Source: Stutzerimonas nosocomialis (GTDB lineage Bacteria; Pseudomonadota; Gammaproteobacteria; Pseudomonadales; Pseudomonadaceae). From it: 64,000 bases of DNA. Location of the stretch: NCBI RefSeq assembly GCF_005876855.1, contig NZ_QLAE01000004.1:1-64000 (forward strand), read 5' to 3'. The position numbers and the translations under genes were made by a program. This document shows positions 1,552 to 19,063 of the stretch, in pieces (positions within the stretch are counted from its first letter, which is position 1; each line of letters begins with the position of its first letter). The notes under the pieces are model-generated. The model saw only the letters and a list, made by a program, of their open reading frames with translations, was not told the DNA's origin and searched no databases.

Positions 1552-3090
1552 ATGCTTTTCAATTCGGTGGAATTCATCGCCGGCTTTCTTCCGGTGGTGC
1601 TGATTGGATTCTTCGTGCTGACCGGATCGGGCCGACAGCGGCTCGCGGTGATCTGGCTGACCGTCGTCTCGTTGGTGTTCTACGGCTGGTGGAACCCGGT
1701 CTACGTACCGCTGCTGGTCGGCAGCATGCTGGTCAACTATCTGCTCGGTGGCTACCTGCGCCGGCACCCCTCACGTCTGGTGCTCGGGCTGGCGGTCGCA
1801 GCCAACGTGTTGCTGCTGGTCTACTACAAATACACCGGCTTCCTGCTCGGCACGCTGGATGCGGCGCTGGATCTAGGTTGGCGGGTGGAAGACATCATCC
1901 TGCCGCTGGCGATCTCCTTCTTCACCTTCCAGCAGATCGCCTACCTGGTCGATGCTCATGACGGCGTGGTGGAAGAACACGACCTCGCCAACTACTGCCT
2001 GTTCATCAGTTTCTTTCCGCAGCTGATCGCCGGACCGATCACCCACCACGGTGAAATGCTTGCGCAGTTCAACGACCGCGACAGCTTCCGCGCGCGCATC
2101 GACAACCTGTCGCTGGGCGCCACGGTGTTCCTGCTCGGTCTGTTCAAGAAGGTGGTGATCGCCGACACCCTCGCGCTGAAAGCCACGCCGGTCTTCAGCC
2201 TGGCCGCCGACGGCACCATCCCGGCGTTCTACGATGCCTGGACCGGCGCGCTGACCTACACGCTGCAGATCTATTTCGACTTCTCCGGCTACAGCGACAT
2301 GGCCATCGGGCTGGCGCTGCTATTCGGCATCAGCCTACCGGCCAACTTCAACAGCCCGTTCAAGGCGCGCAACGTCATCGACTACTGGTCGCGCTGGCAC
2401 ATGACACTGACGCGTTTTCTCACCGCCTACATCTACAACCCCATCGTGCTGCGCGTGACCCGCGCGCGCATGGCGGCCGGCAAGCCGCAGCCGCGGCGGG
2501 GCAAGATGACCGCCGGCACTTTCTTTGCGCTGGTCGCCTACCCCACCGTCTTCACCATGTTCATCTCCGGAATCTGGCACGGCGCCGGCTGGCACTTCGT
2601 CGCCTTCGGCCTGCTGCACGGTTTCTACCTGGTGGTCGCCCACGGCTGGCGTGCCTGGAAGGCGCGTCAGGGCTGGAAGCTGGACAGCGACATCTGGTGG
2701 CACAAGGCTGCGGCCGTCGCGCTGACCTTTGGCTGCGTGGTCGTGGCGATGGTGTTCTTCCGCGCCAGCGACGTGCCGACCGCCATGGCGGTCCTCGCCG
2801 GCATGCTCGGCCTGAGCCCGACCAGCACGGCGATGGATCGCTCCGACTTCGTCTATATCGCCGCGTTGCTGGTCTTCGTCTGGGGCATGCCCAACGTGCA
2901 GCAGTGGATGGGCCATTTCCGCACCGCGCTCAACTTCCAGCCCCAGCCGCACTGGACCGAACGGCTGCTGCCGGTCAGCGCCTGGCGGCCGACGGCGATC
3001 CACGGCATGGCAGTAGGCGTGCTCGGTTTCTTCGCCCTGGCGATCGCCTTCTCCATGGCACCGACGGAGTTCCTCTACTTCCAGTTCTGA
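1552..3090 (+). CDS. MBOAT-family membrane-bound O-acyltransferase (AlgI-like)
   Basis: Integral inner-membrane enzyme that moves an acyl group across the membrane onto an extracytoplasmic acceptor, usually a polysaccharide. About 512 residues from the ATG at 1552, chosen because AGGGAA/TAGGGAAG precedes it and MLFNSVEF is the classic start of this family; the open frame continues upstream to 1450 without support. Multiple hydrophobic helices are present. Conserved MBOAT histidines are visible: SRWHMTLTRF (His283), SGIWHGAGWH (His343) and LLHGFY (His356). It is the first gene of a four-gene cassette with FkbH, ACP and SGNH genes, spaced 21 bp or overlapping, so the acyl donor is likely ACP-bound. 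Acceptor unknown; the adjacent rmlD suggests a rhamnose-containing glycan. Confidence 0.9.
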   Translation: MLFNSVEFIAGFLPVVLIGFFVLTGSGRQRLAVIWLTVVSLVFYGWWNPVYVPLLVGSMLVNYLLGGYLRRHPSRLVLGLAVAANVLLLVYYKYTGFLLGTLDAALDLGWRVEDIILPLAISFFTFQQIAYLVDAHDGVVEEHDLANYCLFISFFPQLIAGPITHHGEMLAQFNDRDSFRARIDNLSLGATVFLLGLFKKVVIADTLALKATPVFSLAADGTIPAFYDAWTGALTYTLQIYFDFSGYSDMAIGLALLFGISLPANFNSPFKARNVIDYWSRWHMTLTRFLTAYIYNPIVLRVTRARMAAGKPQPRRGKMTAGTFFALVAYPTVFTMFISGIWHGAGWHFVAFGLLHGFYLVVAHGWRAWKARQGWKLDSDIWWHKAAAVALTFGCVVVAMVFFRASDVPTAMAVLAGMLGLSPTSTAMDRSDFVYIAALLVFVWGMPNVQQWMGHFRTALNFQPQPHWTERLLPVSAWRPTAIHGMAVGVLGFFALAIAFSMAPTEFLYFQF

Positions 3091-3111
3091 CCACGACAAG
3101 GAGTCTCAGGT

Positions 3112-5013
3112 ATGCAACAGCTCTCCTGGCTGCCGACACACCCGGACCTATCCGGTGCCATCGGCCAAGCCAAACGCATCGAAGATCCGCTGCAGCGGCT
3201 GCATGAAGCCGTCAAGCTGGCCGCTCATCAACGGGATTTCACCCTGACCGCACGACTGGACAAGCTGGCTGCCGCCGGCATCGAGCAGCACGCCGCGGCG
3301 GCACGCCTGACTCCACTGCGGGTGGCACTGCTGTCCTCACATACGGTCGATCACCTGCTGCCGGCCATCCGCGTGGCTGGGCTGCAGCGGCGCCTGGCGC
3401 TGTCGCTGCATGTTGCGCCCTACGGCATGTATCGCCAGGCGCTGCTGGCCGATGACCCGGCGCTGAACGCCTTCGCCCCGCAACTGGTGCTGCTGGCGCT
3501 GGACGCCCATGACGCGCCGCTGCAACTGCCCCTGCAGGCAAGCCAGGCGGAGGTGGATGCCGCCGTGGCGGAGCGCGTCGAGGAGCTGCGCTTGCTCTGG
3601 CGCAGCGCCCGCGAGCGATATGCCGCGCAGGTGGTGCAGCAAACCCTGGTGCCAGCGGCGCCGCCATTGTTCGGTTCTTACGAAGCACTGGTGCCGGCTT
3701 CGCCGCGGGCAGTCATTGAACGGTTGAATGGCGCCATCCGAGCCGCTGCCCGAGAGGAAGGCGTGCTGCTGCTCGATCTGGCCTGGCAGTCGGCTGCCTA
3801 TGGCGACGGCCTGGCCGAGCCGGTGCGCTGGCACCAGGCCAAGCAGCTGATCAGCCCGACCCTGGCACCGCTATATGGCGAGCACTTTGCGCGTATCGCA
3901 GCGGCCACTGCCGGGCTGTCGCGCAAATGCCTGGTGCTGGATCTGGACAACACCCTATGGGGCGGTGTGATCGGTGATGACGGCATCGACGGTATCCAGC
4001 TCGGCCAGGGCAGCCCCAGCGGCGAGGCGTTTCTCGCCTTTCAGCGTTATGCCGCGCAATTGGCGCGCCGCGGGGTGATCCTTGCGGTGTGCAGCAAGAA
4101 CGACCTGCACGTTGCCGAAGCAGCCTTTGAACATACCGAGATGGCCCTCAAGCGCAGCGATATCGCGGCCTTCGTCGCCAACTGGGAAGACAAGGCCGGC
4201 AACCTGCGGCGCATCGCGAGCATGCTCGACATCGGTCTGGATAGCTTGGTGTTCGTCGACGACAACCCCGCCGAGCGCGACATCGTGCGCCGCGAGCTGC
4301 CGGAAGTCGCCGTACCGGAACTGCCCGAGGATGTCGCCGACTACCCCGCGCGCATCGCCGCGGCGGGCTATTTCGAGGCCGTATCCTTTACCTCGGACGA
4401 CGCCGAACGTGGCCGCAGCTATGCGCTGAATGCCGAACGCAAGGCCGCGCTGAACCAGGCCACGGACATGGACGGCTACCTGCGCGGGCTGCAGATGGTG
4501 CTGCGCGTCAGCCGCATCGGCACCGCCGAGCTGGCCCGCGCCACCCAGCTGATCAACAAGACCAATCAGTTCAACCTCACCACCCGCCGCTATACCGAAG
4601 CCGAAGTCGAGCGCATGGCCAGCGATCCGCAAACTATCGCGTTGGCCCTGCGGCTGGAGGACAAGTTCGGCGATAACGGCCTGATCAGCGTGGTGCTGGC
4701 GCGACCGGATACAGCTATCGAGGCTGACGAACTGCTGATCGACAGCTGGCTGATGAGCTGCCGCGTGCTGGGGCGTGAAGTCGAGATGGCCGTGCTGGAG
4801 GTGCTGGCCGATGCGGCAGCGGCCACCGGCTGGGGCGCACTGGTCGGCGAATACCGCCCCACCGAACGCAACGGCATGGTTGCCGAACACTATCCGCGGC
4901 TGGGCTTCGAGCAGCGCCCCGCCCCTGCCAACGCCGCTACCGATGCAAGTTTCTGGCGCTACGAGCTGGCCTCGCGCGCTCCCATCAACCATCACATCCA
5001 GGTGCAAGCATGA
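3112..5013 (+). CDS. FkbH-like HAD-superfamily (HAD-IIIC) glyceryl-ACP loading protein
   Basis: FkbH proteins take a phosphoglycerate unit, dephosphorylate it and load it as glyceryl thioester on an acyl carrier protein. Domains in this 633-residue protein: an N-terminal SGNH-like region (about 65-260), a HAD core with motif I LVLDLDNTLWGG (Asp277 and Asp279) and the later acidic motif VFVDDNP (Asp383/Asp384), then a C-terminal GNAT-like region (about 460-620, with NKTNQFNLTTRR and RNGMVAEHYPRLGF). The start ATG at 3112 follows AAGGAG. Its stop overlaps the ATG of the ACP gene (ATGA at 5010), consistent with translational coupling. Family is clear; the substrate (glyceryl or a related C3 unit) is inferred from characterised polyketide homologues. 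Confidence 0.88.
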   Translation: MQQLSWLPTHPDLSGAIGQAKRIEDPLQRLHEAVKLAAHQRDFTLTARLDKLAAAGIEQHAAAARLTPLRVALLSSHTVDHLLPAIRVAGLQRRLALSLHVAPYGMYRQALLADDPALNAFAPQLVLLALDAHDAPLQLPLQASQAEVDAAVAERVEELRLLWRSARERYAAQVVQQTLVPAAPPLFGSYEALVPASPRAVIERLNGAIRAAAREEGVLLLDLAWQSAAYGDGLAEPVRWHQAKQLISPTLAPLYGEHFARIAAATAGLSRKCLVLDLDNTLWGGVIGDDGIDGIQLGQGSPSGEAFLAFQRYAAQLARRGVILAVCSKNDLHVAEAAFEHTEMALKRSDIAAFVANWEDKAGNLRRIASMLDIGLDSLVFVDDNPAERDIVRRELPEVAVPELPEDVADYPARIAAAGYFEAVSFTSDDAERGRSYALNAERKAALNQATDMDGYLRGLQMVLRVSRIGTAELARATQLINKTNQFNLTTRRYTEAEVERMASDPQTIALALRLEDKFGDNGLISVVLARPDTAIEADELLIDSWLMSCRVLGREVEMAVLEVLADAAAATGWGALVGEYRPTERNGMVAEHYPRLGFEQRPAPANAATDASFWRYELASRAPINHHIQVQA

Positions 5014-5257
5014 ACGAAAGGAAATTCTCCAGGCGCTGAGCCAGGTCTTCCACGACGTGTTCGACGATGACGATATCGTCCTCACCTCCGAAACCACCGC
5101 CGACGACATCGATGGCTGGGACAGCCAGACCCATGTGCTGCTGATCGTGGCCGCAGAGCAACGCTTCGGCATCAAGTTCCGCACCGCAGAACTGGAATCG
5201 CTGAAGAACGTTGGCCACTTCGCGCAACTGATCCAGACCAAACTCGGAGGGCGTTGA
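5010..5257 (+). CDS. Acyl carrier protein, frame interrupted after the start codon
   Basis: A roughly 82-residue ACP with the four-helix pattern and the phosphopantetheine site GWDSQTH. The ATG at 5010 overlaps the FkbH stop and has AGGTG upstream, but its frame ends at 5037-5039. The ACP frame is offset by one base: adding a single A to the AAA run at 5017-5019 gives MNEKEILQALSQVF and then an uninterrupted ACP to 5257. In the sequence as given there is no ATG in the ACP frame before the core, only weak ATT/CTG options (5024, 5036). Either the base is a sequencing or assembly error, a real inactivating deletion, or a -1 recoding site. Three bases separate its stop from the next gene. Confidence 0.8.
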
Positions 5258-5260
5258 GTC

Positions 5261-6325
5261 ATGGCCAGATCCGTCGATACATGCCCGGACGGCGTTGCCG
5301 CCGGAGCCGAAGCAGACCAGCGGCGGATACGTGCCGGCTACCTGCTGGGAATGTTCGCCGGGCTGTTCGGGATGCTCGGCGGCTTTGCCGCCCTGCTCGC
5401 CTGGCTCAATCACACCGACAACCTGCCGCCACCGGCCTTCTCCAACAGCCTGTGTGTGGACGAAAAGCTACACTTTCTGCGGCACAACCCCATCGCCGAT
5501 CCGAACCTGCTGATCGTTGGTTCCTCGGTCGCCTGGCGCCATGTCGATGGTGACGTGCTGATCGAGCAGACGCCAGGCTTGCGTCCGCTCAACGGTGCGT
5601 TCTGCGGCCTGCACGCCAACCAGTCGACCTATGTCGCCAACTGGCTGCTGGATCGTGAACCGAGCGTCCGCCAAGTGGTGATGATCGTCGATCCGCTGGA
5701 CTTCGCCGGCTGCTGGAAAGTGCCGGATGCGGTGTTCGACCGCACTCACGCCGACCAGTACGTCTATCAGCAGGCCTCGCGCTGGGGCTACTACATGCGC
5801 TACTTCTCGCCGCGTTCGCTGCTGCGCAACGCGCAGACGGTCAAGGCGCAACGGGCCAACGAGATCGAATGGGACCCGCTGGTATTCACCCGCCATGGCG
5901 ACGGGCCGCTGGAGCCGCAGGGTGATCGCGGCCTGTTCTACGACAAACCGGACGCGCTGGATGACAGCTGCTTTGTCGCCCTGGGCGAACTGTCGAAACG
6001 CCTGAAGAACGAGCAACGCCAGCTGCTGGTGGTTTCCACGCCCCTGCACCCGCAGTGGAAAGCCAAGATCGATGCCGACGGCAGCTTCCTCACCCGTTTC
6101 GACGCCAAGCTGAACGCCGCCATCGCCGGGCATGACGGGGCTCAGTATTGGAACGCCGATCGCGAATGGGTCGCTCCACCAGCGGCCTTCGTAGATGCCA
6201 TCCACCTGCGCTGGTCAGCCGTGCAGGGCTTTTCCGTGGCGCTGGCCGAGCAACTGCGAGCGTGGGATCAGGCCAGACTCCAGAATTCCGTGCTCGCCGG
6301 CAACGATGCCTACGGCGAGCCATGA
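5261..6325 (+). CDS. Membrane-anchored SGNH/GDSL-like protein of the acylation cassette
   Basis: A 354-residue protein with one N-terminal membrane helix (about residues 25-48) and a periplasmic domain resembling SGNH hydrolases or AlgJ/AlgX-like O-acetylation factors. Block I is LLIVGSSVAW (Ser88 or Ser89 as nucleophile) and the C-terminal Asp-x-x-His is VDAIHL (Asp312, His315). It is last in the MBOAT-FkbH-ACP cassette, 3 bp after the ACP. In such systems the MBOAT delivers an acyl group through the membrane and a periplasmic SGNH protein places it on, or removes it from, the glycan. Transfer versus hydrolysis cannot be decided from sequence. Confidence 0.75.
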   Translation: MARSVDTCPDGVAAGAEADQRRIRAGYLLGMFAGLFGMLGGFAALLAWLNHTDNLPPPAFSNSLCVDEKLHFLRHNPIADPNLLIVGSSVAWRHVDGDVLIEQTPGLRPLNGAFCGLHANQSTYVANWLLDREPSVRQVVMIVDPLDFAGCWKVPDAVFDRTHADQYVYQQASRWGYYMRYFSPRSLLRNAQTVKAQRANEIEWDPLVFTRHGDGPLEPQGDRGLFYDKPDALDDSCFVALGELSKRLKNEQRQLLVVSTPLHPQWKAKIDADGSFLTRFDAKLNAAIAGHDGAQYWNADREWVAPPAAFVDAIHLRWSAVQGFSVALAEQLRAWDQARLQNSVLAGNDAYGEP

Positions 6326-6671
6326 TTCTCGGTAATGCTGGATAAGCGAGACCCTATACATGAGGTTCGGCCTTGCCCACCGAGTCGCATCATCATGCGC
6401 TCTATGGTATGGTCTGCCGCCTTATTCAGCTCTGACTGTTGAAAATCACTGACAGAATGAACGTTTTGACAATCTCTATCTGGCTGCCTACGCCGCCATA
6501 GCGCAACGCCCCCTCCCTTGAATCAGCCTACTGATAGCTGATTCGTCTTGCTGCGCCTGCAGCAATCCGACCATTCGAAAGAATCGTCACTCGATACCTA
6601 CAACTCGACTCGACACACTCGGCACGCCACTGCGGCACGGTGCCGTTGCGTCCATTGCCTTGGATTTACTG
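6326..6671. other. Intergenic region before sulP with an inverted repeat
   Basis: No gene was found in 346 bp. It contains an 8-bp perfect inverted repeat GAATCAGC/GCTGATTC (6520-6527 and 6537-6544, 9-base spacer) with no T-tract, so an operator or weak hairpin rather than a standard terminator. A TTGACA-like -35 element lies at 6466 but its -10 partner is poor. The sulP promoter presumably lies here. Confidence 0.45.
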
Positions 6672-8159
6672 ATGCTGCAAACAATCAAGCAAAACTGGCT
6701 GACCAATATACGTGGCGACATTCTCGCCGGCCTCGTCGTGGCACTGGCTCTGATCCCGGAGGCCATCGCCTTTTCGATCATCGCCGGAGTTGATCCTAAG
6801 GTTGGCCTCTACGCCTCTTTCTGCATCGCTGTGGTTATCGCTTTCGTAGGGGGGCGCCCGGGTATGATTTCGGCCGCCACAGGCGCTATGGCCCTGCTGA
6901 TGGTCACACTGGTGAAGAACCACGGCCTCGAATATCTCCTTGCTGCCACCTTGCTGTGTGGCGTGCTGCAGATCTTTGCTGGCTACCTGAAACTCGGCTC
7001 GCTGATGCGATTCGTCTCACGCTCAGTGGTTACAGGCTTCGTCAATGCTCTGGCAATCCTGATCTTCATGGCGCAGCTGCCCGAACTGACGAACGTCACC
7101 TGGCACGTCTATGCAATGACAGCCGCAGGCCTAGGGATCATCTATCTCTTTCCGTATCTCCCGAAGATTGGAAAGCTCATCCCATCGCCCCTGGTATGCA
7201 TCATCGTGCTGACGGCTGTTGCCATTGCAGTTGGATTGGATATTCGGACTGTAGGTGATATGGGGCAATTGCCCGATACGCTGCCAGTCTTTCTCTGGCC
7301 AGACGTGCCGCTGACGTTCGAGACGCTGGTAATCATCTTCCCGTACTCGGCAGCCCTGGCCGTCGTTGGACTACTAGAGTCGATGATGACCGCGACCATT
7401 GTGGACGACTTGACCGACACACCCAGCAATAAGAACCGTGAGTGCAAGGGTCAAGGTGTGGCTAACATCGCGTCCGGTCTGATCGGCGGTATGGCTGGTT
7501 GCGCGATGATTGGTCAGTCCATCATCAATGTTAAGTCCGGTGGACGTACTCGCCTTTCCTCCTTGGCTGCGGGCGTTTTCCTTTTGCTGATGGTGGTCTT
7601 CCTCGGTGATTGGCTGAAGCAAATTCCAATGGCCGCGCTCGTGGCAGTGATGATCATGGTCTCGATCGGTACCTTCAGCTGGGACTCGTTACGCAATCTG
7701 AAGAAACACCCATTGTCGACCAACATTGTCATGGTCGTAACCGTGGTGGTCGTGGTCGCAACCCACAACCTGGCCTACGGCGTACTCGCCGGCGTATTGC
7801 TAGCCGCGATGTTCTTCGCCAACAAGGTTGGCCATTACATGGATATCGCTTCGTCTTTGGACGAGGCAGGTGAACATCGAAGCTATACCGTCATCGGGCA
7901 GGTGTTCTTCAGCTCCGCTGACAAGTTCATCGCTGCATTCGATTTCAAGGAAGCAGTAGACAAGGTAACCATTGATCTGAGCCGTGCTCACTTCTGGGAT
8001 ATCACCGCAGTTGCCGCGCTGGACAAGGTAGTCATCAAGTTCCGCCGTGAGGGGACCGAGGTTGAGGTGCTGGGACTCAACGAAGCGAGCGCCACTATCG
8101 TTGACCGCTTTGGCGTGCACGATAAGCCGGACGCCATTGATCAACTAATGGGCCACTAA
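6672..8159 (+). CDS. SulP-family anion transporter with STAS domain
   Basis: Inner-membrane SLC26/SulP transporter for an anion such as sulfate or bicarbonate. About 495 residues: an N-terminal SulP membrane core (residues about 10-380, beginning [20 protein letters not shown], with repeated glycine/alanine helices) and a cytoplasmic STAS domain (about 395-490, [20 protein letters not shown]). The ATG at 6672 is preferred over the in-frame TTG at 6660 because GGA lies at the right distance. A universal stress protein (14 bp downstream) and a DksA-like gene follow in apparent operon order. Substrate is not determinable from sequence; bicarbonate or sulfate are the usual options. Confidence 0.9.
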
Positions 8160-8172
8160 AAGGAGAACAACA

Positions 8173-9024
8173 ATGACCAATGTAATCGCCTGCATCGACG
8201 GTTCCGCTTCGGCTCCAGCGGTTTGCGACTATGCAGCCTGGGCCAGTCGGAGTTTGCAAGCTCCGCTGACCTTTCTGCACGTATTAGATCAACAACAATA
8301 TCCGGTTGCAGCGAACCTGAGCGGCAATATCGGACTCGGCAGCCGCGAGCATCTCCTCGATGAACTTGCCTCTCTGGATGAACAGCGCAGCAAATTGGCG
8401 CTTGAACAAGGGCGAATCATGCTAGCGAACGCCAAAGAGCGCGCGATTGGAAACGGTGTTACCTCACCGGAATCCAAGCAGCGCCACGGCGAGTTGTTGG
8501 AAAGCCTCCAGGCATTGGAAGACGAGATACGGTTGCTGGTCATCGGCCGTCAGGGCGAATCCAGCGGTAGTCTGAGTCAGCACGTCGGAAGCCAGCTGGA
8601 AAGCGTGATTCGAATCATGCATCGGCCAGTTCTCGTTACTCCGACAGCATTCAAGGAGCCCAAAAGCGCGTTGGTGGCCTTCGATGGCAGCGCTACCACG
8701 CGAAAAGGCGTGGAGATGCTGGCGTCCAGCCCTCTGTTCAGGGGGCTGCCAGTCCACATTGTTATGGTCGGATCGGAAAACGAAGAATCGGTATCGCAGC
8801 TTGGCTGGGCACAAAAAGCCCTGCTCGACTCAGGGTTCACCGTTCATACCGCGATCCGTAGCGGTGAAGTTGAGCCCACCCTGCATGCCTATCAGAACGA
8901 GCATGCCATCGACCTACTTGTGATGGGCGCCTACGGTCATTCCCGTATTCGCCAGTTCCTGGTCGGTAGCACCACAACAAGTATGTTGCGTTCCACCACA
9001 AGTCCGCTGCTCCTGCTGCGCTGA
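8173..9024 (+). CDS. Tandem universal stress protein (UspA x2)
   Basis: Cytoplasmic stress protein made of two UspA domains (about residues 1-150 and 166-283). The second keeps the nucleotide-binding signature GAYGHSRIRQFLVGST (G-2x-G-9x-G-S/T) followed by the STTSPLLLLR strand; the first is more divergent in its loop. The start ATG at 8173 has AAGGAGAA seven bases upstream. It directly follows sulP and its stop is six bases before the DksA-like ATG, so the three are probably cotranscribed. A role tuning the transporter or sensing ATP is an inference from context. Confidence 0.9.
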   Translation: MTNVIACIDGSASAPAVCDYAAWASRSLQAPLTFLHVLDQQQYPVAANLSGNIGLGSREHLLDELASLDEQRSKLALEQGRIMLANAKERAIGNGVTSPESKQRHGELLESLQALEDEIRLLVIGRQGESSGSLSQHVGSQLESVIRIMHRPVLVTPTAFKEPKSALVAFDGSATTRKGVEMLASSPLFRGLPVHIVMVGSENEESVSQLGWAQKALLDSGFTVHTAIRSGEVEPTLHAYQNEHAIDLLVMGAYGHSRIRQFLVGSTTTSMLRSTTSPLLLLR

Positions 9025-9030
9025 TTGGTT

Positions 9031-9384
9031 ATGGATAAACCGCTGGATCTCGCCTATTTCAAAGCGCTGCTGGATCGAAAGGCGGCCGAGCTGGAGCGCC
9101 TGTTGGAAGGTGCCGAAGCACGGTCGCAATCGGTGGAGCTTGATCAGAGCAAAGTAGGTCGTATTTCGAGAATGGATGCACTCCAACAGCAAGCGATGAA
9201 CGATGCCATCCGCAGCCGCACGAAGCAGGAACGGGTGCGGCTGCAACTGGCGCTAAAACGCTGGCATGAGGGTGAGTATGGCTGGTGCGCTCAGTGCGGT
9301 GAGCCTATTGCTCCGGGCCGCCTGGAGTTCGACCCGGCTGCATCCCTATGTATTAGTTGTGCCAGTCTCGGTGAGTCAGGTTGA
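9031..9384 (+). CDS. TraR/DksA-family zinc-finger protein
   Basis: A 117-residue protein with an N-terminal helical region (about 5-80) and a C-terminal four-cysteine zinc finger (Cys86, Cys89, Cys107, Cys110). Family members enter the RNA polymerase secondary channel and alter promoter response, often with ppGpp. The protein is shorter than DksA (about 150) and lies nearer TraR/YbiI-like members. The ATG at 9031 is used; the TTG at 9025 directly after the upstream stop is an alternative. Third gene of the sulP-usp unit. Confidence 0.85.
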   Translation: MDKPLDLAYFKALLDRKAAELERLLEGAEARSQSVELDQSKVGRISRMDALQQQAMNDAIRSRTKQERVRLQLALKRWHEGEYGWCAQCGEPIAPGRLEFDPAASLCISCASLGESG

Positions 9385-9422
9385 AATCTCCGATTCGTCA
9401 CTCCCATTAATTGAGAATTTGA

Positions 9423-10385
9423 ATGTCGATAGGCAAGAAAAAAGGATCCACTAAAACGCGAAGAACCCACGTCTGGCTGTGGGTGGTGCTGTTCCTAGTA
9501 ATTTTCGCCATATTTCAAATCCGTACCAAGCATCTTGATGACCGGTTGTATTTTTGGGTAAAGACCTACTGGCACACCGACGACTGGAATGAGAGCTCAG
9601 TATGGCTGCCGGCTTATCAGGTCGAGCTGGATGCTAAGCCGGTTCCTGGTGTAGAGAACAACCTTTCCGGACTGACCTTCGACCCTGACCAGAATCTGTT
9701 GTGGGCAGTTACCAACGGACCTAATGAACTGCTGACTCTAAGTCGCGAAGGCGATTTGCTGAGACGCTACAGCCTGGACGGGTTCCATGATGTAGAGGCG
9801 GTGTCCTACGTTGGTAACGGCCAGCTGGCAATCGCTGAGGAGCGTCGTCAGAGTCTGGTCATCGTGGATGTGCCCTTGGAAGATAATGGCGAGCTTTCTT
9901 CAAATCGCTCGATAAGCCGCGAGAAGTATCCAGCTCTCACCTTGGCGCTGGGCAACCAGGACAACAAAAGTCTTGAGGGGCTTGCGTACGATCTGAAACG
10001 AGACCGTTTATTTCTCACGCGGGAGCGTGACCCCCGCCAGCTGCTGGAGGTGAGCGGACTACGTGCAAGTCTTGAAGGCGGCCTTTCCCTTCATGTGCGC
10101 GACATGTCGGACTTGGTAAATAGCAAGATTTTCGCGACTGACTTATCTTCGGTCGTGTTCGATCAACGAAGCGGTCATCTACTCCTACTCAGCGACGAGT
10201 CGAAGCTGCTGATTGAAATGACGGATGTGGGGAAAGTCGTGAGTTTTCGCTCCTTGGCCACCGGTTTTGCTGGGTTGCAGAAAGGTATTCCCCAGGCAGA
10301 GGGTGTAACGACCGACACGGACGGCTATTTATACATCGTCAGCGAACCAAATCTGTTTTACCGATTCACACGGGCGCAAGATTGA
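9423..10385 (+). CDS. SdiA-regulated (YjiK-like) beta-propeller protein
   Basis: A 320-residue protein with one N-terminal membrane helix (about residues 16-34) and an extracytoplasmic SdiA-regulated/phytase-like propeller domain, shown by NLSGLTFDPDQNLLWAVTN, the acidic LDGFHDVEAVSY and the NKSLEGLAYD and QAEGVTTDTDGYLYIVSEP repeats. The acidic repeats resemble calcium-binding sites of the family. The biochemical role is unknown. It is 38 bp after the DksA-like gene and may end that operon. Confidence 0.82.
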   Translation: MSIGKKKGSTKTRRTHVWLWVVLFLVIFAIFQIRTKHLDDRLYFWVKTYWHTDDWNESSVWLPAYQVELDAKPVPGVENNLSGLTFDPDQNLLWAVTNGPNELLTLSREGDLLRRYSLDGFHDVEAVSYVGNGQLAIAEERRQSLVIVDVPLEDNGELSSNRSISREKYPALTLALGNQDNKSLEGLAYDLKRDRLFLTRERDPRQLLEVSGLRASLEGGLSLHVRDMSDLVNSKIFATDLSSVVFDQRSGHLLLLSDESKLLIEMTDVGKVVSFRSLATGFAGLQKGIPQAEGVTTDTDGYLYIVSEPNLFYRFTRAQD

Positions 10386-10548: not shown

Positions 10549-11208
10549 CTAGTTGCACCGCACCACCCACAACTGATCCAGCTTGGTCGTGAAACTTTGG
10601 CTCATCATCTCCCGTCGCGTGCTCCAGTCCGGCGCGGTGGTTACGCGGCCGGGCCGGAGGGTGTTGCGGCCCCACTTGGCGTTGATTGCATCGAGCACGC
10701 CCATAACCCGCTCCGACGCAGCGGACTGGGTTTGAGCGAATAGATCGTCGGTGTACTCGCCACGCTGGCACAGATCCATTAGCAGGACCTCGGCCTTGCT
10801 GAACGAAAAGCCCTCGCGATAGATGTGCTCCAAACCGGCGATCGCCGCCCGGGTGATGTATCGGGTGTCGTCGGTGGGATACGGCAGCTCACACACCACG
10901 CCTTTTGCGAACTTGGGCTCGTCGGGATTGAACATGCCGGTACGGATGCTGATTCGGACACGCTTGCACAGTGACTGCTGTGCCCTCAGCTTCTCGCTGG
11001 CCCGGGCGGCGTACGCCGCCACTGCCTCCTTGATCGGCTCCAGCTCGCGCAAGCGCTTGCCGAACATCCGCGAGCAGCAGATTTCTTGTTTGGGTGACGC
11101 GACCCCGGACTGATTCTCCAGCTTGCCTTTGACCTGGAGCAGCTTCGAACCCATTAAGGCTGGCCTGTATCGCTCCGCAAGGTCTCGCCACACCACTACG
11201 TGGACCAT
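10549..11208 (-). pseudogene. Chimeric remnant: DnaE2 (ImuC) fragment joined to UmuC C-terminus
   Basis: A 219-codon open frame whose first 35 or so codons (11208 to about 11103) match the OB-fold end of the error-prone polymerase DnaE2/ImuC (MVHVVVWRDLAERYRPAL...KLLQVKGKL), while the rest matches the C-terminal part of UmuC/RulB (QEICCSRMFGKRL, KAEVLLMDLCQRGE, SQSFTTKLDQLW). UmuC's N-terminal palm and catalytic acids are missing, so it cannot be a polymerase. It probably arose by deletion between two SOS mutagenesis loci at an insertion hot spot. The recombinase gene lies 164 bp away on the same strand, in keeping with known integration into rulB/umuC in pseudomonads. Confidence 0.75.
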
Positions 11209-11328
11209 GCCGAACTCTTATGTCTGGGAGAATTTCCAGGTGGCAGCCAATGGAAATGGTGGATTACCCAGCCGCCAGGCGCTGCCCGCTTTTTGGCGTA
11301 GATTCGACTTATCACTAGCGTCCGCTAT

Positions 11329-11343
11329 TGGCCGGTTAGCGAC
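11329..11343 (+). repeat. 15-bp inverted repeat, left copy, beside the recombinase
   Basis: TGGCCGGTTAGCGAC; its exact reverse complement lies at 12044-12058, so the pair brackets the recombinase gene. It is part of a wider motif (TCCGCTATTGGCCGGTTAGC) that recurs in the window. Confidence 0.75.
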
Positions 11344-11372
11344 GGCCTGGCTTCGACCGTCGCTATGCATGG

Positions 11373-11993
11373 TCAAACCTCGGTCTGTTCCGCCATCTCT
11401 AGGGCATCATCGACCTCAATCCCCAGATATCGAACGGTGCTCTCCAGCTTCGTATGGCCGAGCAACAGTTGAACTGCCCGCAAGTTCTTCGTCCTGCGAT
11501 AGATCAGCGATGCCTTCGTACGTCTCATTGTGTGAGTGCCATACAGAGCTGGATCAAGGCCAATGGCTTTCACCCAACCTTTGACGATACGAGCGTATTG
11601 ACGAGTGGATAGATGGTCTGAGATATGCAGCCGGCTCGGAAAAAGGCAATCCTCGCTGCGGAGCTGGGCTTGATGTATCCAGGCCGCGAGAGCAGACCGT
11701 GTTTGCTCAGTGATCTCGAACTGCACCGGCCGCTGCGTTTTCTGCTGCATAACCATGGCTCGTGATGACACGTGCTCACCATGAGCAACGTCGCGCACAC
11801 GAAGTTTGGTTAAGTCGCAGGCTCGAAGCTTGCTGTCGATGGCCAGATCGAAGAGAGCCAGATCCCGTGTTTTTTCCGCAATTTGCAGCCTGACTCGGAT
11901 GGCCCAGATATCTCTAAGTCGGAGCGGGGTTTTCTGCCCGACCAGTTTTCCTTTGTTCCAGGGCTGACGGCTGCAGGTAGCGATGGCGTTCAT
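11373..11993 (-). CDS. Small tyrosine recombinase/integrase
   Basis: Site-specific recombinase of 206 residues, consisting almost only of a catalytic domain. The active-site set is complete: Arg57 (KLRACD), His154 and Arg157 (THTMRR), His180 (LLGH) and Tyr189 (TVRYLG). The start ATG at 11993 has GGAGG eight bases upstream; the open frame extends further but without support. Compact recombinases of this type occur next to umuC/rulB in pseudomonads, which fits the neighbouring UmuC remnant. It is flanked by a 15-bp inverted repeat and is the likely agent that brought in the arsenic genes to the right; direct att sites were not proven. Confidence 0.9.
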   Translation of the reverse strand: MNAIATCSRQPWNKGKLVGQKTPLRLRDIWAIRVRLQIAEKTRDLALFDLAIDSKLRACDLTKLRVRDVAHGEHVSSRAMVMQQKTQRPVQFEITEQTRSALAAWIHQAQLRSEDCLFPSRLHISDHLSTRQYARIVKGWVKAIGLDPALYGTHTMRRTKASLIYRRTKNLRAVQLLLGHTKLESTVRYLGIEVDDALEMAEQTEV

Positions 11994-12043
11994 GGCAAGT
12001 CCTCCACGTGTGGGAGGACAAGGATGGCTAGCCAGAGCAGTGG

Positions 12044-12058
12044 TCGCTAACCGGCCAG
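12044..12058 (-). repeat. 15-bp inverted repeat, right copy
   Basis: GTCGCTAACCGGCCA, the exact reverse complement of 11329-11343. It lies 51 bp upstream of the recombinase start. The extended sequence on the minus strand again resembles the dispersed TGGCCG motif. Confidence 0.75.
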
Positions 12059-12215
12059 GAGCAGCCATTGCCTTGGTTTCTTTACAGCTCGGCGGTGCTC
12101 TTTGAGACCTGAAATGAATGGTTACATGCGCACATTCGAATTAACGCATATTGTAACTTTTCTGAAATGATCTCCCTAGTAGATTGGTGGCTCCCACCAC
12201 TCAATAGGTAGCGCC

Positions 12216-12539: not shown

Positions 12540-14294
12540 TTACTTGCTGAGAGCGAGTAAACGCTCAACCCCAACCGGCTCCTCCGCCATGAGCGGGATG
12601 ACCGCATAGCGTTGCGCGTGCTCGGTCGCGACATGCTCAATATCCTTCAGCTCATTGACCGCCCGCTTATGTAATAGCGGTGATTCTGTACTTGCGGCTG
12701 CCACGCTATTGTTGATCACCCATGCCCAAGGCTCAATGCCGGCACGACGCAGATCAGCTTGCAGGCTCGCGGCCTCCAGCACGGGAGTGGTTTCAGCCAG
12801 GGTCACCAGCAGCACTTTGGTTTGCTTAGGATCCTGGAGTTGCATCATCGGCGTGGAAAAACGCATGTTGCTGCCCGACATCTGCCGAGCAATGTCGCGG
12901 TGATAAGCCCCGGTGGCATCCAGTAACAGCAAGGTATGGCCGGTCGGGGCCGTATCCATCACCACGAACTTTTTGCCGGCTTCACGGATGATTCGCGAGA
13001 AGGCCTGGAATACAGCGATCTCCTCGGTACAGGGTGAACGCAGATCCTCGGCCAGCAGCGCCCGAGCCTGCTCATCCAGGCCCGCGCCCTTGGTTTGCAT
13101 GACGTGATCACGATAGCGCTGTGTCTCGGCATGCGGGTCAATGCGGCTCAGCGTCAGGTGCTCAAGCGTGCCATCCAGTGTCTCGGCAAGGTGCGCGGCA
13201 GGATCAGAAGTAGTCAGGTGCACGGGCAGCCCACGTCGAGCCAATTCGACGGCAACCGCTGCGGCCAAAGTCGTTTTACCGACACCACCTTTGCCCATCA
13301 CCATGATCAGGCCATGACCATCGGCGGCGATCTCGTCGATCAGGGACTTGAGTCGTGGAGCGTTCAATTCAATCGGCGCACTGGCCGGTGCCTGCGTGCT
13401 GTCAGCAGAACCCTCAACCAAAAGTTGTCGCAGGGCATCCAATCCCACCAGGTTGAATGCTTTCAACGGCAACAGGTCGAGCGGCAGTGTTCGCAGCGCT
13501 GGCGGCATGGCAGCGACTGCGGCCTGTTCACGTTTATAGACGGCGGCGGCCAGTACATCCTTCTGCGCCTCACTCGCCGGCAGCACGCCGTTGATCACCA
13601 GGTACTGCTCTTGCAGCCCGATGGCTGCCAACTCCTCGCGTGTGCGGGCAGCCTCGCGCAGGGTGGCGGCCTGCGCCCTGGCAACCAGAACCAGACGGGT
13701 CTTGGCTGGATCAGAGAGTGCCTCTACCGCCTCGCGATACTGATCACGTTGTTTGTCCAAACCGGCCAGCGGGCCAAGACACGATGCATCACCTTGCCCC
13801 GCCTCCAGAAATCCACTCCAGGCACCCGGCAGTTGCAGCAGTCGAATCGTGTGCCCGGTCGGGGCGGTATCGAAAATGATGTGATCGAAGCGGGCCTTCA
13901 GTTCATCGTTGACCAGCAGTGACGTGAATTCGTCGAAGGCTGCGATCTCGGTCGTGCAGGCTCCCGATAATTGCTCCTCCATGCCTTTGACCACATCAGC
14001 AGGCATGACACCCCTCGCCGGGCCCACAATCCGATCCCGATAGGCTTGAGCTGCGCCCTGTGGGTCGATCTCCAGGGCCGCCAGGTTTTCCACGGCGGGT
14101 ACAGCGGTGATCTGATTGCCGATCTCCAGACCGAATACCTGCCCGACATTGGAGGCCGGATCGGTACTGACCAGCAGCACGCGCTTGCCCTGACGGGTCA
14201 GTTCCAGGGCTGTCGCGCAGGCAATGGAGGTCTTTCCGACCCCGCCCTTACCGGTGAAGAACAGGAAGCGTGGTGCATTGTCGATAAAGCGCAT
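12540..14294 (-). CDS. arsA: Arsenite-stimulated ATPase ArsA
   Basis: Cytosolic ATPase that docks on an arsenite channel and drives As(III)/Sb(III) export. The 584-residue protein has two homologous halves, each with a P-loop (GKGGVGKT at about 15-22 and 334-341) and a DTAPTGHT signal motif. The metalloid-binding cysteines fall at Cys113, Cys172 and Cys422, matching the classical plasmid R773 ArsA positions. It follows acr3 by 9 bp on the same strand. No arsD chaperone gene is in the window, which is unusual for arsA loci. Pairing with Acr3 rather than ArsB is inferred from adjacency. Confidence 0.96.
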   Translation of the reverse strand: MRFIDNAPRFLFFTGKGGVGKTSIACATALELTRQGKRVLLVSTDPASNVGQVFGLEIGNQITAVPAVENLAALEIDPQGAAQAYRDRIVGPARGVMPADVVKGMEEQLSGACTTEIAAFDEFTSLLVNDELKARFDHIIFDTAPTGHTIRLLQLPGAWSGFLEAGQGDASCLGPLAGLDKQRDQYREAVEALSDPAKTRLVLVARAQAATLREAARTREELAAIGLQEQYLVINGVLPASEAQKDVLAAAVYKREQAAVAAMPPALRTLPLDLLPLKAFNLVGLDALRQLLVEGSADSTQAPASAPIELNAPRLKSLIDEIAADGHGLIMVMGKGGVGKTTLAAAVAVELARRGLPVHLTTSDPAAHLAETLDGTLEHLTLSRIDPHAETQRYRDHVMQTKGAGLDEQARALLAEDLRSPCTEEIAVFQAFSRIIREAGKKFVVMDTAPTGHTLLLLDATGAYHRDIARQMSGSNMRFSTPMMQLQDPKQTKVLLVTLAETTPVLEAASLQADLRRAGIEPWAWVINNSVAAASTESPLLHKRAVNELKDIEHVATEHAQRYAVIPLMAEEPVGVERLLALSK

Positions 14295-14303
14295 GCTGAC
14301 CCC

Positions 14304-15383
14304 CTAGCGATTGTTGAGGCTGCTCTCGTACCAGTTGCGTGTGCTGTTGACCATGCGTACCAGCCATAGCATCACGGGCACTTCGATCAGTACGCCGACC
14401 ACGGTTGCCAGGGCGGCACCCGAGTTGAATCCGTACAAGACAATGGCCACGGCTACGGCCAGCTCGAAGAAGTTGGAGGCGCCGATCATGGTGGCCGGGC
14501 CCGCTATGTCGTGGCGCACTTTCAGTGTATGGCAGAGCCAGTAACCCAGTGCCGCGATGAACAGTGTCTGCACCAACAGAGGAATCGCGATGATGCCGAT
14601 GATCAGGGGTTGCTCGACGATGGACTCACCCTGGAAGGAGAACAACAGAACCAGAGTGGCCAGCAGAGCGATGATGGAAAATGGCGAAATCTTCGCCAGC
14701 ACATTCTCGAAATAGGCTTCGCCGCGCTTCATCAGTCGGGCCCGCAGAAACTGGGCGATGGCCAGCGGGATGACGATGTACATCACCACGGAAAGCAGCA
14801 GGGTGTCCCAAGGCACCGGGATCGAAGAAACGCCCAGCAACAGCGCCACGATAGGCGCAAAGGCAAACACCATGACCAGATCGTTCAGTGCCACCTGGGT
14901 CAGAGTGAAGTTGGCATTACCCTTACACAGGTTGCTCCAGACAAACACCATCGCCGTGCAGGGCGCCGCACCGAGCAGGATCAAGCCGGCCATGTAGCTA
15001 TCCAGCTCTTCGGCGGGCAGCCAGGGCGCAAACACCTGCTTGATAAAGAACCAGCCAATCAGCGCCATGGAAAACGGCTTGACCGCCCAGTTAACGAACA
15101 GCGTGACGAACATGCCGTTCTTCTGCTGGCGCACTTCGCTAATGGCGCTGAAGTCGATCTTCATCAGCATCGGAATGATCATCACCCAGATCAGCAGGCC
15201 AACCGGGATATTGACCTTCGCCACCTCCAGGGCGCCGACGGCCTGAGCCGCTTGCGGCACAACCAAGCCAAGCACGGTGCCTACCACGATGCACAGGAAC
15301 ACCCACAGGGTCAGGTAGCGCTCAAAAACTCCCAGTGGAGCCCCAGAGGCCTGCTTCATTGCGACTTCACACGCATTTGTCAT
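14304..15383 (-). CDS. acr3: Acr3-family arsenite efflux transporter
   Basis: Inner-membrane As(III) exporter of the ACR3 (BART) family, about ten helices in 359 residues. The conserved cysteine of the fourth helix is in GAAPCTAMVFVWSN (Cys142), and the late-helix glutamate in GASNFFELAVAVA is present. The start at 15383 has an AGGATAGG element upstream; a second Met at residue 9 is possible. It is the first gene of the minus-strand operon with arsA and faces the arsC::arsR gene across a 109-bp AT-rich divergent promoter. Confidence 0.95.
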   Translation of the reverse strand: MTNACEVAMKQASGAPLGVFERYLTLWVFLCIVVGTVLGLVVPQAAQAVGALEVAKVNIPVGLLIWVMIIPMLMKIDFSAISEVRQQKNGMFVTLFVNWAVKPFSMALIGWFFIKQVFAPWLPAEELDSYMAGLILLGAAPCTAMVFVWSNLCKGNANFTLTQVALNDLVMVFAFAPIVALLLGVSSIPVPWDTLLLSVVMYIVIPLAIAQFLRARLMKRGEAYFENVLAKISPFSIIALLATLVLLFSFQGESIVEQPLIIGIIAIPLLVQTLFIAALGYWLCHTLKVRHDIAGPATMIGASNFFELAVAVAIVLYGFNSGAALATVVGVLIEVPVMLWLVRMVNSTRNWYESSLNNR

Positions 15384-15492
15384 CTTTGCTGCCTATCCTC
15401 ATTCACTTGGCGCGCAACGCGCCGCATATTCAGTTTACTGCATATTCGAAAAATAATATATTTGCTCATGTGCATCTTTGATAGGGATCAAC
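15384..15492. promoter_or_regulatory. Divergent ars promoter/operator region
   Basis: AT-rich 109-bp spacer between acr3 (minus) and the arsC::arsR fusion (plus), with TAATAT at 15454-15459 and several ATAT-containing half-repeats around 15430-15460. ArsR repressors bind such AT-rich imperfect palindromes, so autoregulation by the fused ArsR is likely. The exact operator is not defined. Confidence 0.5.
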
Positions 15493-16275
15493 ATGAGCCA
15501 GAAAAAGCGCGTCCTGTTCCTCTGCGTCGCGAACTCCTCACGCTCGCAGATGGCCGAAGCCCTGCTGCGCCACACCGACTCAGAACATTTTGAAGTCTAC
15601 AGCGCAGGCTCCGCCCCCACTGAAGTCGACACCCGAGCCCGCAACGCATTGGAGCAGCTTGGTGTCCCCACTGATGGGCTTTACAGCAAGTCCATCGAAC
15701 AGGTCGCTGGCGAGCCTTTCGACTATGTGATCACCCTGTGTGACAAGTCCGCCCTGGAGTGCCAGGCACTGCCAGGGGCCGGTGAGTACATCGCCTGGAA
15801 CTTCGAAGACCCGGCGACCAGCTCGCAGAAAGATGCCTATCGCAAGACCCTGCATGAGATACATGAACGGATAAAGATGTTCGTGCTGATCAAAAGTAAA
15901 CCGGCGAATGAAGCTTCCACCCTGCATGCCATGTCGCCAACCGAGGTCTTCAAATGCCTGGCCGAGGAAACGCGGGCGCGAATCGCCTTGCTGGTGACCT
16001 TGGAACAGGAACTCTGTGTCTGCGAACTGACCTCGGCACTGGAAGAGGCGCAACCCAAGATCTCCCGGCACCTAGCCCTGCTGCGTGGCTGTGGCCTGCT
16101 GGAGGATCGACGCAATGGTCAGTGGGTGTACTACCGCCTGCACCCGCAGTTGCCGGAATGGGTGACCGATATCCTCAAACAGACCCTGGACAACAATGCC
16201 GAGTGGTTGCGCCAGGATGTGCAACGCCTCTGGCAAATGCGTGATCGCCCTGGGCGCAAGCCGGCCTGCGATTGA
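15493..16275 (+). CDS. ArsC-ArsR fusion: thioredoxin-type arsenate reductase plus As(III) repressor
   Basis: One 260-residue protein joins two usual separate proteins. Residues 1-140 form a low-molecular-weight phosphatase-fold arsenate reductase with the CX5R loop CVANSSR (Cys11, Arg17), general acid Asp106, and the relay cysteines Cys83 and Cys90, spaced as in the Staphylococcus thioredoxin-coupled ArsC (10/82/89). Residues 147-255 form an ArsR winged helix with the As(III) motif ELCVCEL (Cys175, Cys177) and helix-turn-helix PKISRHLALLRGCGLL. The ATG at 15493 follows AGGG; the TTG at 15478 is less likely. It opens the plus-strand ars operon and faces acr3. Confidence 0.93.
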   Translation: MSQKKRVLFLCVANSSRSQMAEALLRHTDSEHFEVYSAGSAPTEVDTRARNALEQLGVPTDGLYSKSIEQVAGEPFDYVITLCDKSALECQALPGAGEYIAWNFEDPATSSQKDAYRKTLHEIHERIKMFVLIKSKPANEASTLHAMSPTEVFKCLAEETRARIALLVTLEQELCVCELTSALEEAQPKISRHLALLRGCGLLEDRRNGQWVYYRLHPQLPEWVTDILKQTLDNNAEWLRQDVQRLWQMRDRPGRKPACD

Positions 16276-16297
16276 ATACCAGGCATTGGGGATGACC

Positions 16298-16768
16298 ATG
16301 AACGTTTTATTTCTCTGCACCGCCAATAGCTGCCGCAGCATCCTGTCGGAGGCTATCTTCAATGCGATGGCTCCCAAGGGCATGCGGGCCTTTAGCGCAG
16401 GCAGCTACCCCAAGGGGGAGGTCAATCCGCTGGCTTTGCAGGCACTGATTGATGCTGGATTCGATGTTGAAGGCCTTTACAGCAAATCAACCGATGCCCA
16501 TCAGGCTCTCGCCCCTGACATCGTCATTACCGTCTGCGACAAGGCAGCCGGAGAGGCCTGCCCGGTTTTCTTTGGCCCGGCGACTCGTTGTCACTGGGGA
16601 CTGAGTGACCCATCCGAAGTTAACGGATCTGAGGCAGAAATAAACGCCGCGTTTGCAGCCACCATCCAGCAGATCCAGAAGCGAGTGAGCGCATTTATCG
16701 CGCTGCCCTTTGCTCAACTCGACAGTGATGCGCTCAAGGCCGAGCTGAACAGGATCGGCTCGTTGTAG
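16298..16768 (+). CDS. arsC: Second arsenate reductase, low-molecular-weight phosphatase fold
   Basis: A 156-residue ArsC with the P-loop CTANSCR (Cys7, Arg13), additional cysteines Cys80 and Cys88, and DPSEVNGSEAEI carrying the catalytic aspartate. It reduces arsenate to arsenite in the cytoplasm; the different cysteine spacing from the fused ArsC suggests another thiol donor. GGGGA lies before the ATG at 16298; the ATG at 16292 is an alternative two codons earlier. It is 22 bp after the fusion gene and 18 bp before arsH. Confidence 0.92.
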   Translation: MNVLFLCTANSCRSILSEAIFNAMAPKGMRAFSAGSYPKGEVNPLALQALIDAGFDVEGLYSKSTDAHQALAPDIVITVCDKAAGEACPVFFGPATRCHWGLSDPSEVNGSEAEINAAFAATIQQIQKRVSAFIALPFAQLDSDALKAELNRIGSL

Positions 16769-16786
16769 CCCAAGAGGTAAGAACCC

Positions 16787-17497
16787 ATGATCGACAACCT
16801 GCCCAACGTCGCCGAGGAGCTTTTTGCCCGCTCTATCCCGACAAACCTGGGCCTCGCCGAAGGCGAGCACAAGCCGCGCATTCTGCTGCTGTATGGCTCC
16901 AATCGTGAGCGCTCCTACAGCCGTCTGCTGACCCAGGAAGCGGCGCGCTTGCTGGAAGCCTTCGGCGCGGAAACCCGAATATTCGATCCTTCCGGCCTGC
17001 CCATGCCGGACGATGCCGACAGCAGCCATCCCAAGGTCAAGGAACTCATCGACCTGGTGCTCTGGTCTGAAGGTCAGGTGTGGTGTTCACCCGAGCGCCA
17101 TGGCGCCATGACCGGCGTATTCAAGTCGCAGATCGACTGGATACCGCTGACCATGGGTGCCATCCGCCCCAGTCAGGGCAAGACCCTGGCCGTGATGCAG
17201 GTCTGTGGCGGCTCGCAATCCTTCAATGCGGTTAACCAAATGCGTGTGCTGGGGCGCTGGATGCGCATGTTCACCATCCCCAACCAGTCTTCAGTGCCCA
17301 AGGCCTACCTCGAATTCGACGAGGCCGGGCGCATGAAACCTTCCAGCTATTACGACCGCGTAGTGGACGTCATGGAGGAACTGGTCAAGTTCACCCTGCT
17401 GCTGCGCGGCCACAGCGACTATTTGGTCGACCGTTACTCGGAACGTAAAGAGTCCGCTGAAGAACTCTCCAAGCGCGTCAACCAGCGCGCCATCTGA
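16787..17497 (+). CDS. arsH: NADPH-dependent organoarsenical oxidoreductase ArsH
   Basis: Flavodoxin-like FMN protein of 236 residues that oxidises trivalent methyl- and aryl-arsenicals to less toxic pentavalent forms. The FMN phosphate loop is [13 protein letters not shown] (about residues 35-47). The [18 protein letters not shown] segment and the [14 protein letters not shown] loop are characteristic of ArsH. Length is typical. AAGAGGTAAG precedes the ATG. It lies between arsC and the phosphatase gene in the plus-strand operon. Confidence 0.95.
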
Positions 17498-17516
17498 CTG
17501 CCAGGAAACCCTCTCA

Positions 17517-18017: not shown

Positions 18018-18040
18018 CTCCAGTAGATGAGTCGAAAAAC

Positions 18041-19045: not shown

Positions 19046-19063
19046 CCGAGTAGGGATGCAAGC

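Follow-up and report, generated by a model that had tools for sequence, protein, structure and literature searches.

The four genes at positions 1,552 to 6,325 of the DNA analysed here raise the question of where a bacterial membrane acyltransferase obtains its acyl group. This DNA is a stretch of 64,000 nucleotides from Stutzerimonas nosocomialis (RefSeq assembly GCF_005876855.1, contig NZ_QLAE01000004.1, positions 1 to 64,000; hereafter the window), which comes from a 4.76 Mb genome and begins at the edge of a contig. We confirmed that the four genes form a unit on the plus strand encoding a membrane acyltransferase of the MBOAT family, an FkbH-type protein, an acyl carrier protein (ACP) frame and a membrane-anchored SGNH protein. 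The gap between the MBOAT and FkbH genes is 21 bases, the FkbH stop codon overlaps the usual ACP start, and the gap between the ACP and SGNH genes is 3 bases. We propose that the cassette is a carrier-fed transmembrane acyl-transfer machine in which FkbH primes the ACP with glyceryl and the SGNH protein esterifies an envelope polymer, a reading to which we assign a probability of about 60%. A carrier-fed acylation step carried out by the MBOAT and SGNH proteins, considered by itself, appears highly probable, and by analogy with described FkbH proteins the transferred group is likely to be glyceryl.

Genes and motifs of the cassette

The MBOAT gene (1552..3090; all cassette features given here lie on the plus strand) encodes a protein of 512 aa that scores 78.6 bits with PF03062 against a cut-off of 27 and is the only PF03062 match in its own genome. 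Its closest solved MBOAT relatives by sequence are the DltB structures 6bug and 8jem (E 2e-33). Two histidines are invariant in the MBOAT family alignment, namely His283 (2398..2400), which a profile alignment places opposite DltB His289, and His343 (2578..2580), a conserved catalytic-type histidine in the motif WHGAGW that also aligns to DltB. The protein ends in FLYFQF (3070..3087), which is kept in 9 of 9 aligned cassette MBOATs and contains Tyr509. This end corresponds to the hexapeptide FxYxxF; in PatA as well as in the Dlt pathway, according to PMC12148441, the tyrosine of that hexapeptide holds the acyl group. A fused shuttle motif and a dedicated carrier protein co-occur in the cassette.

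The FkbH gene (3112..5013) encodes 633 aa comprising FkbH_N/SGNH-like, HAD and C-terminal GNAT-like parts, and its product scores 289.7 bits with the FkbH profile TIGR01686, for which the cut-off is 146.65. In an alignment of 87 sequences (our own and 86 others), Asp277 and Asp279 of the DxDxT motif (3940..3954) are present in all 87 and Thr281 in 84, so that the intact motif named in an earlier first-pass annotation of the sequence is confirmed. Lys361, Asp383 and Asp384 are likewise invariant (87/87), as are Ser549, Cys550 and Arg551, the SCR motif that holds the candidate thioester residue Cys550 (4759..4761). Judged from sequence, this pattern is compatible with a HAD phosphatase that is linked to an acyl transferase part. 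The structure model of FkbH is weak (predicted local distance difference test, pLDDT, 58.2; predicted template modelling score, pTM, 0.41) and we relied solely on the confident C-terminal part, which matches GNAT folds in a structure search. A solved relative of the protein is BF1531 of Bacteroides fragilis (3slr, E 3.7e-60), which has FkbH_N-like and HAD parts and is 34% identical in the Foldseek alignment; unlike the cassette FkbH, its solved part ends before the GNAT-like C-terminal part.

The ACP frame (5012..5257), for which NCBIfam ACP matches remain below cut-off, carries Ser40 (5123..5125), the expected phosphopantetheine site, in GWDSQ, and GWDS is invariant in the ACP family alignment. 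A family profile identifies 2lml as the nearest solved ACP (E 9.3e-28), which we take to be GmACP3 of Geobacter metallireducens. The SGNH protein (5261..6325; 354 aa) has a membrane anchor formed by helix 16-51 of its structure model. The Ser-Asp-His elements attributed to it in the first-pass annotation are present as Ser88/Ser89 in G87-S88-S89 (5522..5527) and as Asp312-x-x-His315 (6194..6205), and both are invariant in 12 of 12 aligned sequences including our own. Foldseek on the SGNH model returned DltD as the top match. We rejected membership of the DltD family for this protein, as its profile PF04914 was not found in the cassette SGNH protein, or in its own genome at E 0.1, and the resemblance is one of fold.

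All four genes are present in 58 of the 67 rows compared, and FkbH and ACP sit between MBOAT and SGNH, which is more than chance would give for an accidental grouping. The rows comprise the window and 66 fetched loci, several of which represent the same place twice, and all were found via FkbH or SGNH similarity. Of the incomplete rows, four run into the end of a contig and five have a masked FkbH stretch; the ACP is seen in 65 of the 67 rows, and the remaining two stop short of its position. The unit recurs in Stutzerimonas, and outside that genus a single Coralloluteibacterium genome has it, where locus L067 carries the same cassette at 67, 69, 64 and 56% identity. FkbH relatives at E 1e-30 or better occur in 34 of 55 other genomes of the genus, and three genomes (G001, G022 and G038) have two full-length FkbH copies each, with all six copies within complete cassettes. 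Across Pseudomonadota, FkbH was found in 58 of 398 genomes, the window genome included.

In the model that we infer for the acyl group, its docking, its transfer and its acceptor, FkbH would draw on a C3 phosphoacid of glycolysis, most probably 1,3-bisphosphoglycerate, and use its acyl phosphate; the HAD site of FkbH would strip the other phosphate, and glyceryl would be loaded on the ACP at its phosphopantetheine arm. Glyceryl-ACP would then dock at a cytoplasmic MBOAT helix equivalent to helix HC of DltB, and the MBOAT would shift the acyl group onto Tyr509 in the FxYxxF shuttle at its own C-terminus. Finally, the anchored SGNH protein would accept the acyl group on its active serine and esterify a hydroxyl of the envelope polymer. 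The first-pass annotation had proposed a relay of a C3 acid from FkbH through ACP and MBOAT to the SGNH protein. The shuttle motif and the likeness to DltB and DltD support this idea, as do the changed docking segment and the linkage of FkbH, ACP and MBOAT elsewhere (both described below), while the choice of glyceryl comes from knowledge of the FkbH family. If the model is correct, activation would draw its energy from an acyl phosphate already present in a glycolytic intermediate, which would make a ligase step unnecessary, and glyceryl esterification of the surface would be coupled to glycolytic flux. The model would also add, for Gram-negative bacteria, a class of glycan decoration with hydroxyacyl groups and suggest a role for FkbH beyond polyketide and peptide pathways.

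An alternative is that the same carrier-fed machine transfers a different acyl group, either another C3 acid or a glyceryl that is altered on the ACP before transfer. A MaoC-type dehydratase does lie near FkbH, ACP and MBOAT in the related loci L132 (4436-5869) and L123 (7074-8528), where it points to acyl groups different from glyceryl, and further oxidation of glyceryl-ACP has been proposed in a polyketide pathway (PMC7489565). However, no modifying enzyme is present among the four Stutzerimonas cassette genes, and FkbH proteins of polyketide and peptide pathways are described, in PMC7489565 and PMC8949500, as producing a carrier-bound glyceryl thioester from 1,3-bisphosphoglycerate. We consider a group other than glyceryl unlikely.

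The proposed machine resembles the Dlt pathway of teichoic acid D-alanylation (DltA, DltB, DltC, DltX and DltD) in having a carrier protein, an MBOAT and an SGNH protein. An acyl-tyrosine shuttle motif is common to both, residing on DltX in the Dlt pathway and fused to the MBOAT in the cassette. In contrast, the place of the DltA ligase is taken in the cassette by FkbH, and that of D-alanyl by a presumed glyceryl. No DltA equivalog was found in the genome, where the best TIGR01734 score is 91.3 bits against a cut-off of 559.85. To our knowledge, carrier-protein feeding of such a transmembrane acyl machine was previously clear from one other pathway only, and the cassette, if our reading is right, would provide a second route to prime carrier-fed MBOAT machines. 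The Mad7/Mad8 and Mad14/Mad12 pairs of polyketide/tetronate pathways consist, like the central part of the cassette, of an FkbH and a stand-alone ACP, and in PMC7489565 they are proposed to yield glyceryl-ACP; these pairs feed a polyketide synthase, whereas the cassette product would go to a membrane acyltransferase. In the literature searched, outside which most subscription papers fall, no description of an FkbH-MBOAT cassette came up; two cyanobacterial natural-product papers contain both words.

The docking segment and linkage to FkbH and ACP

MBOAT residues 293-312 (2428..2487) align to helix HC of DltB, on which the carrier protein DltC docks. The contacts of DltC listed in PMC11035591 are Met302, Val305, Ile306 and Met309 of helix HC, Lys312 at the HC tip and Arg317 on the next helix. 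In a gapless profile alignment these residues are opposed in the cassette MBOAT by N296, V299, L300, T303, R306 and K311, respectively. The corresponding segment of most other MBOATs compared resembles DYLYIPLGGNR, and the cassette segment is without this GG loop.

We compared this loop among MBOATs from 94 FkbH neighbourhoods, 60 hand-picked MBOAT neighbourhoods and two cassette loci, with identical segments collapsed and nine MBOATs having no readable segment. GG is absent in 16 of 16 MBOATs that have FkbH and ACP on the same strand within 6 kb, a count for which 15 of 15 is safer because the L111 segment looks mis-anchored. MBOATs lacking such linkage have GG in 52 of 55 readable cases (Fisher p 3e-13, with kinship ignored). 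Among the three exceptions, L123 has its FkbH and ACP on the opposite strand, and L254 is truncated by a contig end and is the sister of a linked MBOAT; the third, L255, is considered below. L117, whose FkbH lies on the opposite strand and where no ACP was found, retains LGG. A quick tree, which kept the docking-segment columns and disregarded strand in the linkage label, gives 7 changes of that label, of which at least 5 are forced by well supported branches. The association of GG loss with linkage is thus strong numerically and moderate in its independence, as read from these sequences.

Linkage itself was examined in the 94 FkbH neighbourhoods, which are 92 of 95 survey rows plus two others, with some overlap (the three rows left out are our own genome, one genome of the same genus and one row at a contig edge). 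An MBOAT lies within ~6 kb of FkbH in 18 of the 94, against 0.65 expected from per-genome MBOAT density. As PF03062 at E 1e-10 served for the expectation and a more permissive profile at E 1e-3 for the observed number, 0.65 underestimates the true expectation somewhat. In eight of the linked loci (L112, L115, L121, L123, L129, L136, L138 and L139) a DxxH protein is encoded beside the MBOAT. An early GxS motif is present in seven of these DxxH proteins, L112 having a few unread letters near that site, and all eight adjoining MBOATs end in FIYFQF. A weak ACP match was obtained at L121, L136 and L139 (E 2e-6 to 4e-5). The FxYxxF end is absent in five linked MBOATs (L111, L142, L144, L145 and L173), and the proposed mechanism therefore does not fit every linked MBOAT.

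A plasmid search with the SGNH protein returned three records, one from P. luteola and two from Skermanella. Both Skermanella plasmids carry an overlapping SGNH-MBOAT gene pair (SGNH 32% and MBOAT 43-46% identical to the cassette proteins), and in the 15-17 kb read neither the FkbH nor the ACP of the cassette found a match; further downstream, one of them encodes a Pls/PosA peptide synthetase. The Skermanella MBOATs have the segment YIRLGGNR and the C-terminal end FIYFNF. These pairs, the nearest found that have neither FkbH nor ACP, thus keep LGG. In the simplest history, which is also the probable one, the cassette originated from an acyl-CoA (acyl-coenzyme A)-fed MBOAT/SGNH pair that was joined by genes for FkbH and an ACP and whose docking segment changed, with loss of the GG loop. 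In a more general form, acyl-CoA-fed MBOAT/SGNH pairs would have been re-wired to carriers repeatedly through remodelling of the docking helix, the donor in the present case being glyceryl-ACP made by FkbH from 1,3-bisphosphoglycerate; we put this forward tentatively, at somewhat less than even odds. If true, loss of the GG loop would be a readable, imperfect sign separating carrier-fed from CoA-fed MBOATs.

Evidence against the proposed carrier-fed relay, and the ACP start codon

Several observations weigh against the proposal that FkbH and the ACP feed the MBOAT. The linked neighbourhoods are unevenly distributed, as one class, that of genome G478, supplies 15 of the 18 and other groups supply three. 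FkbH is common in that class (39 of 48 genomes, often several per genome), and all 48 genomes were already in the earlier samples, so that a second FkbH survey added none. On well supported branches of the tree the independent pairs stand at 3 to 0 with 2 uninformative (sign test p 0.25). L255 (3598-7305), the nearest outgroup of the cassette MBOAT, is a true exception that lacks GG; it adjoins two AlgX-type genes, and in the DNA examined around it neither FkbH nor ACP was found. The cassette ACP is without glutamate at the DltC positions that form salt bridges to DltB. In a VIA-align search with the SGNH model, generic SGNH hydrolases lead and DltD is absent from the 50 rows listed. As a class label for the MBOAT, "DltB-like" was rejected, since the DltB model also matches the LGG-keeping MBOAT L117; the cassette MBOAT scores 192.8 bits with the DltB equivalog TIGR04091 against a cut-off of 375, and seven other MBOATs score 148 to 195 bits. 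Lastly, the usual ACP start, an ATG at 5010 that overlaps with the stop codon of FkbH, lies in another frame in the window copy, where it is closed after 9 codons, and this junction (5006-5060) is the sole readable one with the ACP start out of frame.

In a rival explanation, the MBOAT and SGNH proteins are an ordinary acyl-CoA (acetyl) pair, and FkbH and the ACP, which would make something else, are neighbours by history. The fusion of FxYxxF to the C-terminus of the MBOAT, together with a separate SGNH protein, is the arrangement of PatA/PatB and other acyl-CoA-fed pairs of AlgI type, and is classed as such in PMC12148441. L255, a relative with neither FkbH nor ACP, has lost GG as well, and 76 of the 94 FkbH neighbourhoods have no MBOAT. 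On the other hand, the MBOAT and SGNH genes enclose those for FkbH and ACP in all 58 complete rows, and the linkage of FkbH, ACP and MBOAT recurs across unrelated MBOAT lineages. The cassette also differs from PatA/PatB-type pairs in its own ACP and FkbH and in the absence of the GG loop. Such pairs are described in PMC12148441 as having no carrier protein, and the dedicated ACP of the cassette argues against an acyl-CoA donor that needs none. An ALGX-type SGNH protein, as in alginate acetylation by AlgI, AlgJ and AlgX, was not found in the genome (PF16822 at E 0.1). An ordinary acyl-CoA pair is in our view quite unlikely, and we retain the carrier-fed machine as the preferred explanation.

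The irregular ACP start raises a separate possibility, that the cassette is idle in the window strain, either as a decaying unit or through a sequencing or assembly error that only makes it appear so. The first-pass annotation had described a dedicated ACP and overlooked this irregularity; the ACP-like frame with Ser40 stands, whereas an ordinary start codon is wanting in the window copy. All 58 relative rows with a readable junction have an ATG in the ACP frame, and the patchy distribution of FkbH within the genus likewise speaks for an idle unit. Against this, the remaining three genes are open and well conserved, and in-frame starts exist at 4943, an ATG within FkbH that would add ~21 residues, and at 5057, a GTG that would remove the first helix, so some ACP might still form. 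Because of these alternative start codons we lower the odds of an idle cassette, which we regard as a definite possibility that falls well short of an even chance.

The acceptor, rmlD and genomic contexts

The acceptor of the acyl group may be lipopolysaccharide, peptidoglycan, a periplasmic glucan or an exopolysaccharide. As a side observation, 12 of the 28 rows compared have a gene for the lipid A deacylase LpxR directly after the SGNH gene and in the same orientation (e.g. L050 11143-12126), which hints at a lipopolysaccharide target.

In the form first proposed for this locus, glyceryl decorates a rhamnose-containing O-antigen and the neighbouring rmlD gene participates. The window rmlD (59-970) does adjoin the cassette. 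It is, however, 581 bases from the MBOAT gene, and a terminator-like hairpin lies between the two at 1271-1283, a pattern found 4 times against 3.5 expected in shuffled sequence; membership of rmlD in the cassette operon is unlikely given this gap and hairpin. Of 27 distinct loci, 5 have an rmlD gene nearby: in the window, L032 and L068 it lies upstream, and at the other two, L038 and L069, it lies downstream. These represent three kinds of context, and that of L069 includes a polysaccharide pyruvyl transferase. A P. luteola plasmid (L259 7001-8315) also carries, next to a fragment of RmlD, a disrupted SGNH relative with 52% identity. These findings lend weak support to a rhamnose or O-antigen target. 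Against it, rmlD was not found in 22 of the 27 loci within the ~4 to 10 kb examined per side, and elsewhere in the genome two further rmlD genes score above the cut-off. Furthermore, the rmlD of L068 may be mobile cargo, as upstream of it are DUF3275 and DUF6094 genes, which we presume to be integrative-element genes. Overall, we consider decoration of a rhamnose-containing O-antigen with the help of this rmlD very unlikely. The idea that the cassette is part of an O-antigen or glycan synthesis cluster was rejected for most loci compared, because their neighbours vary.

The contexts of the cassette range from LpxR with a sigma-54 regulator and a flavin oxidoreductase, through a BrkB/glycosyltransferase group, to two-component systems, short-chain fatty acid genes and others, and from this variety we conclude that the cassette is a self-contained accessory unit. 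Phage records gave short matches only, covering at most 5% of the query, in a search that did not extend to viral contigs.

Beyond the cassette, the window holds at 6660-10385 a block of genes for a SulP permease, a universal stress protein, a DksA/TraR zinc finger protein and an SdiA-regulated protein; the first part of this block also adjoins the cassette in L068, and the block is inverted in L069. At 10549-12068 a UmuC-type polymerase is represented by a C-terminal piece (IMS_C, DUF4113) and is accompanied by a gene of the phage-integrase family; the two hint at the edge of a mobile element. Positions 12540-20287 encode an ArsA-type ATPase, an SBF transporter and a flavin mononucleotide (FMN) reductase, along with ArsC-like, GAPDH and major facilitator superfamily (MFS) genes recognized by reading the translations alone, and the whole resembles an arsenic-resistance group.

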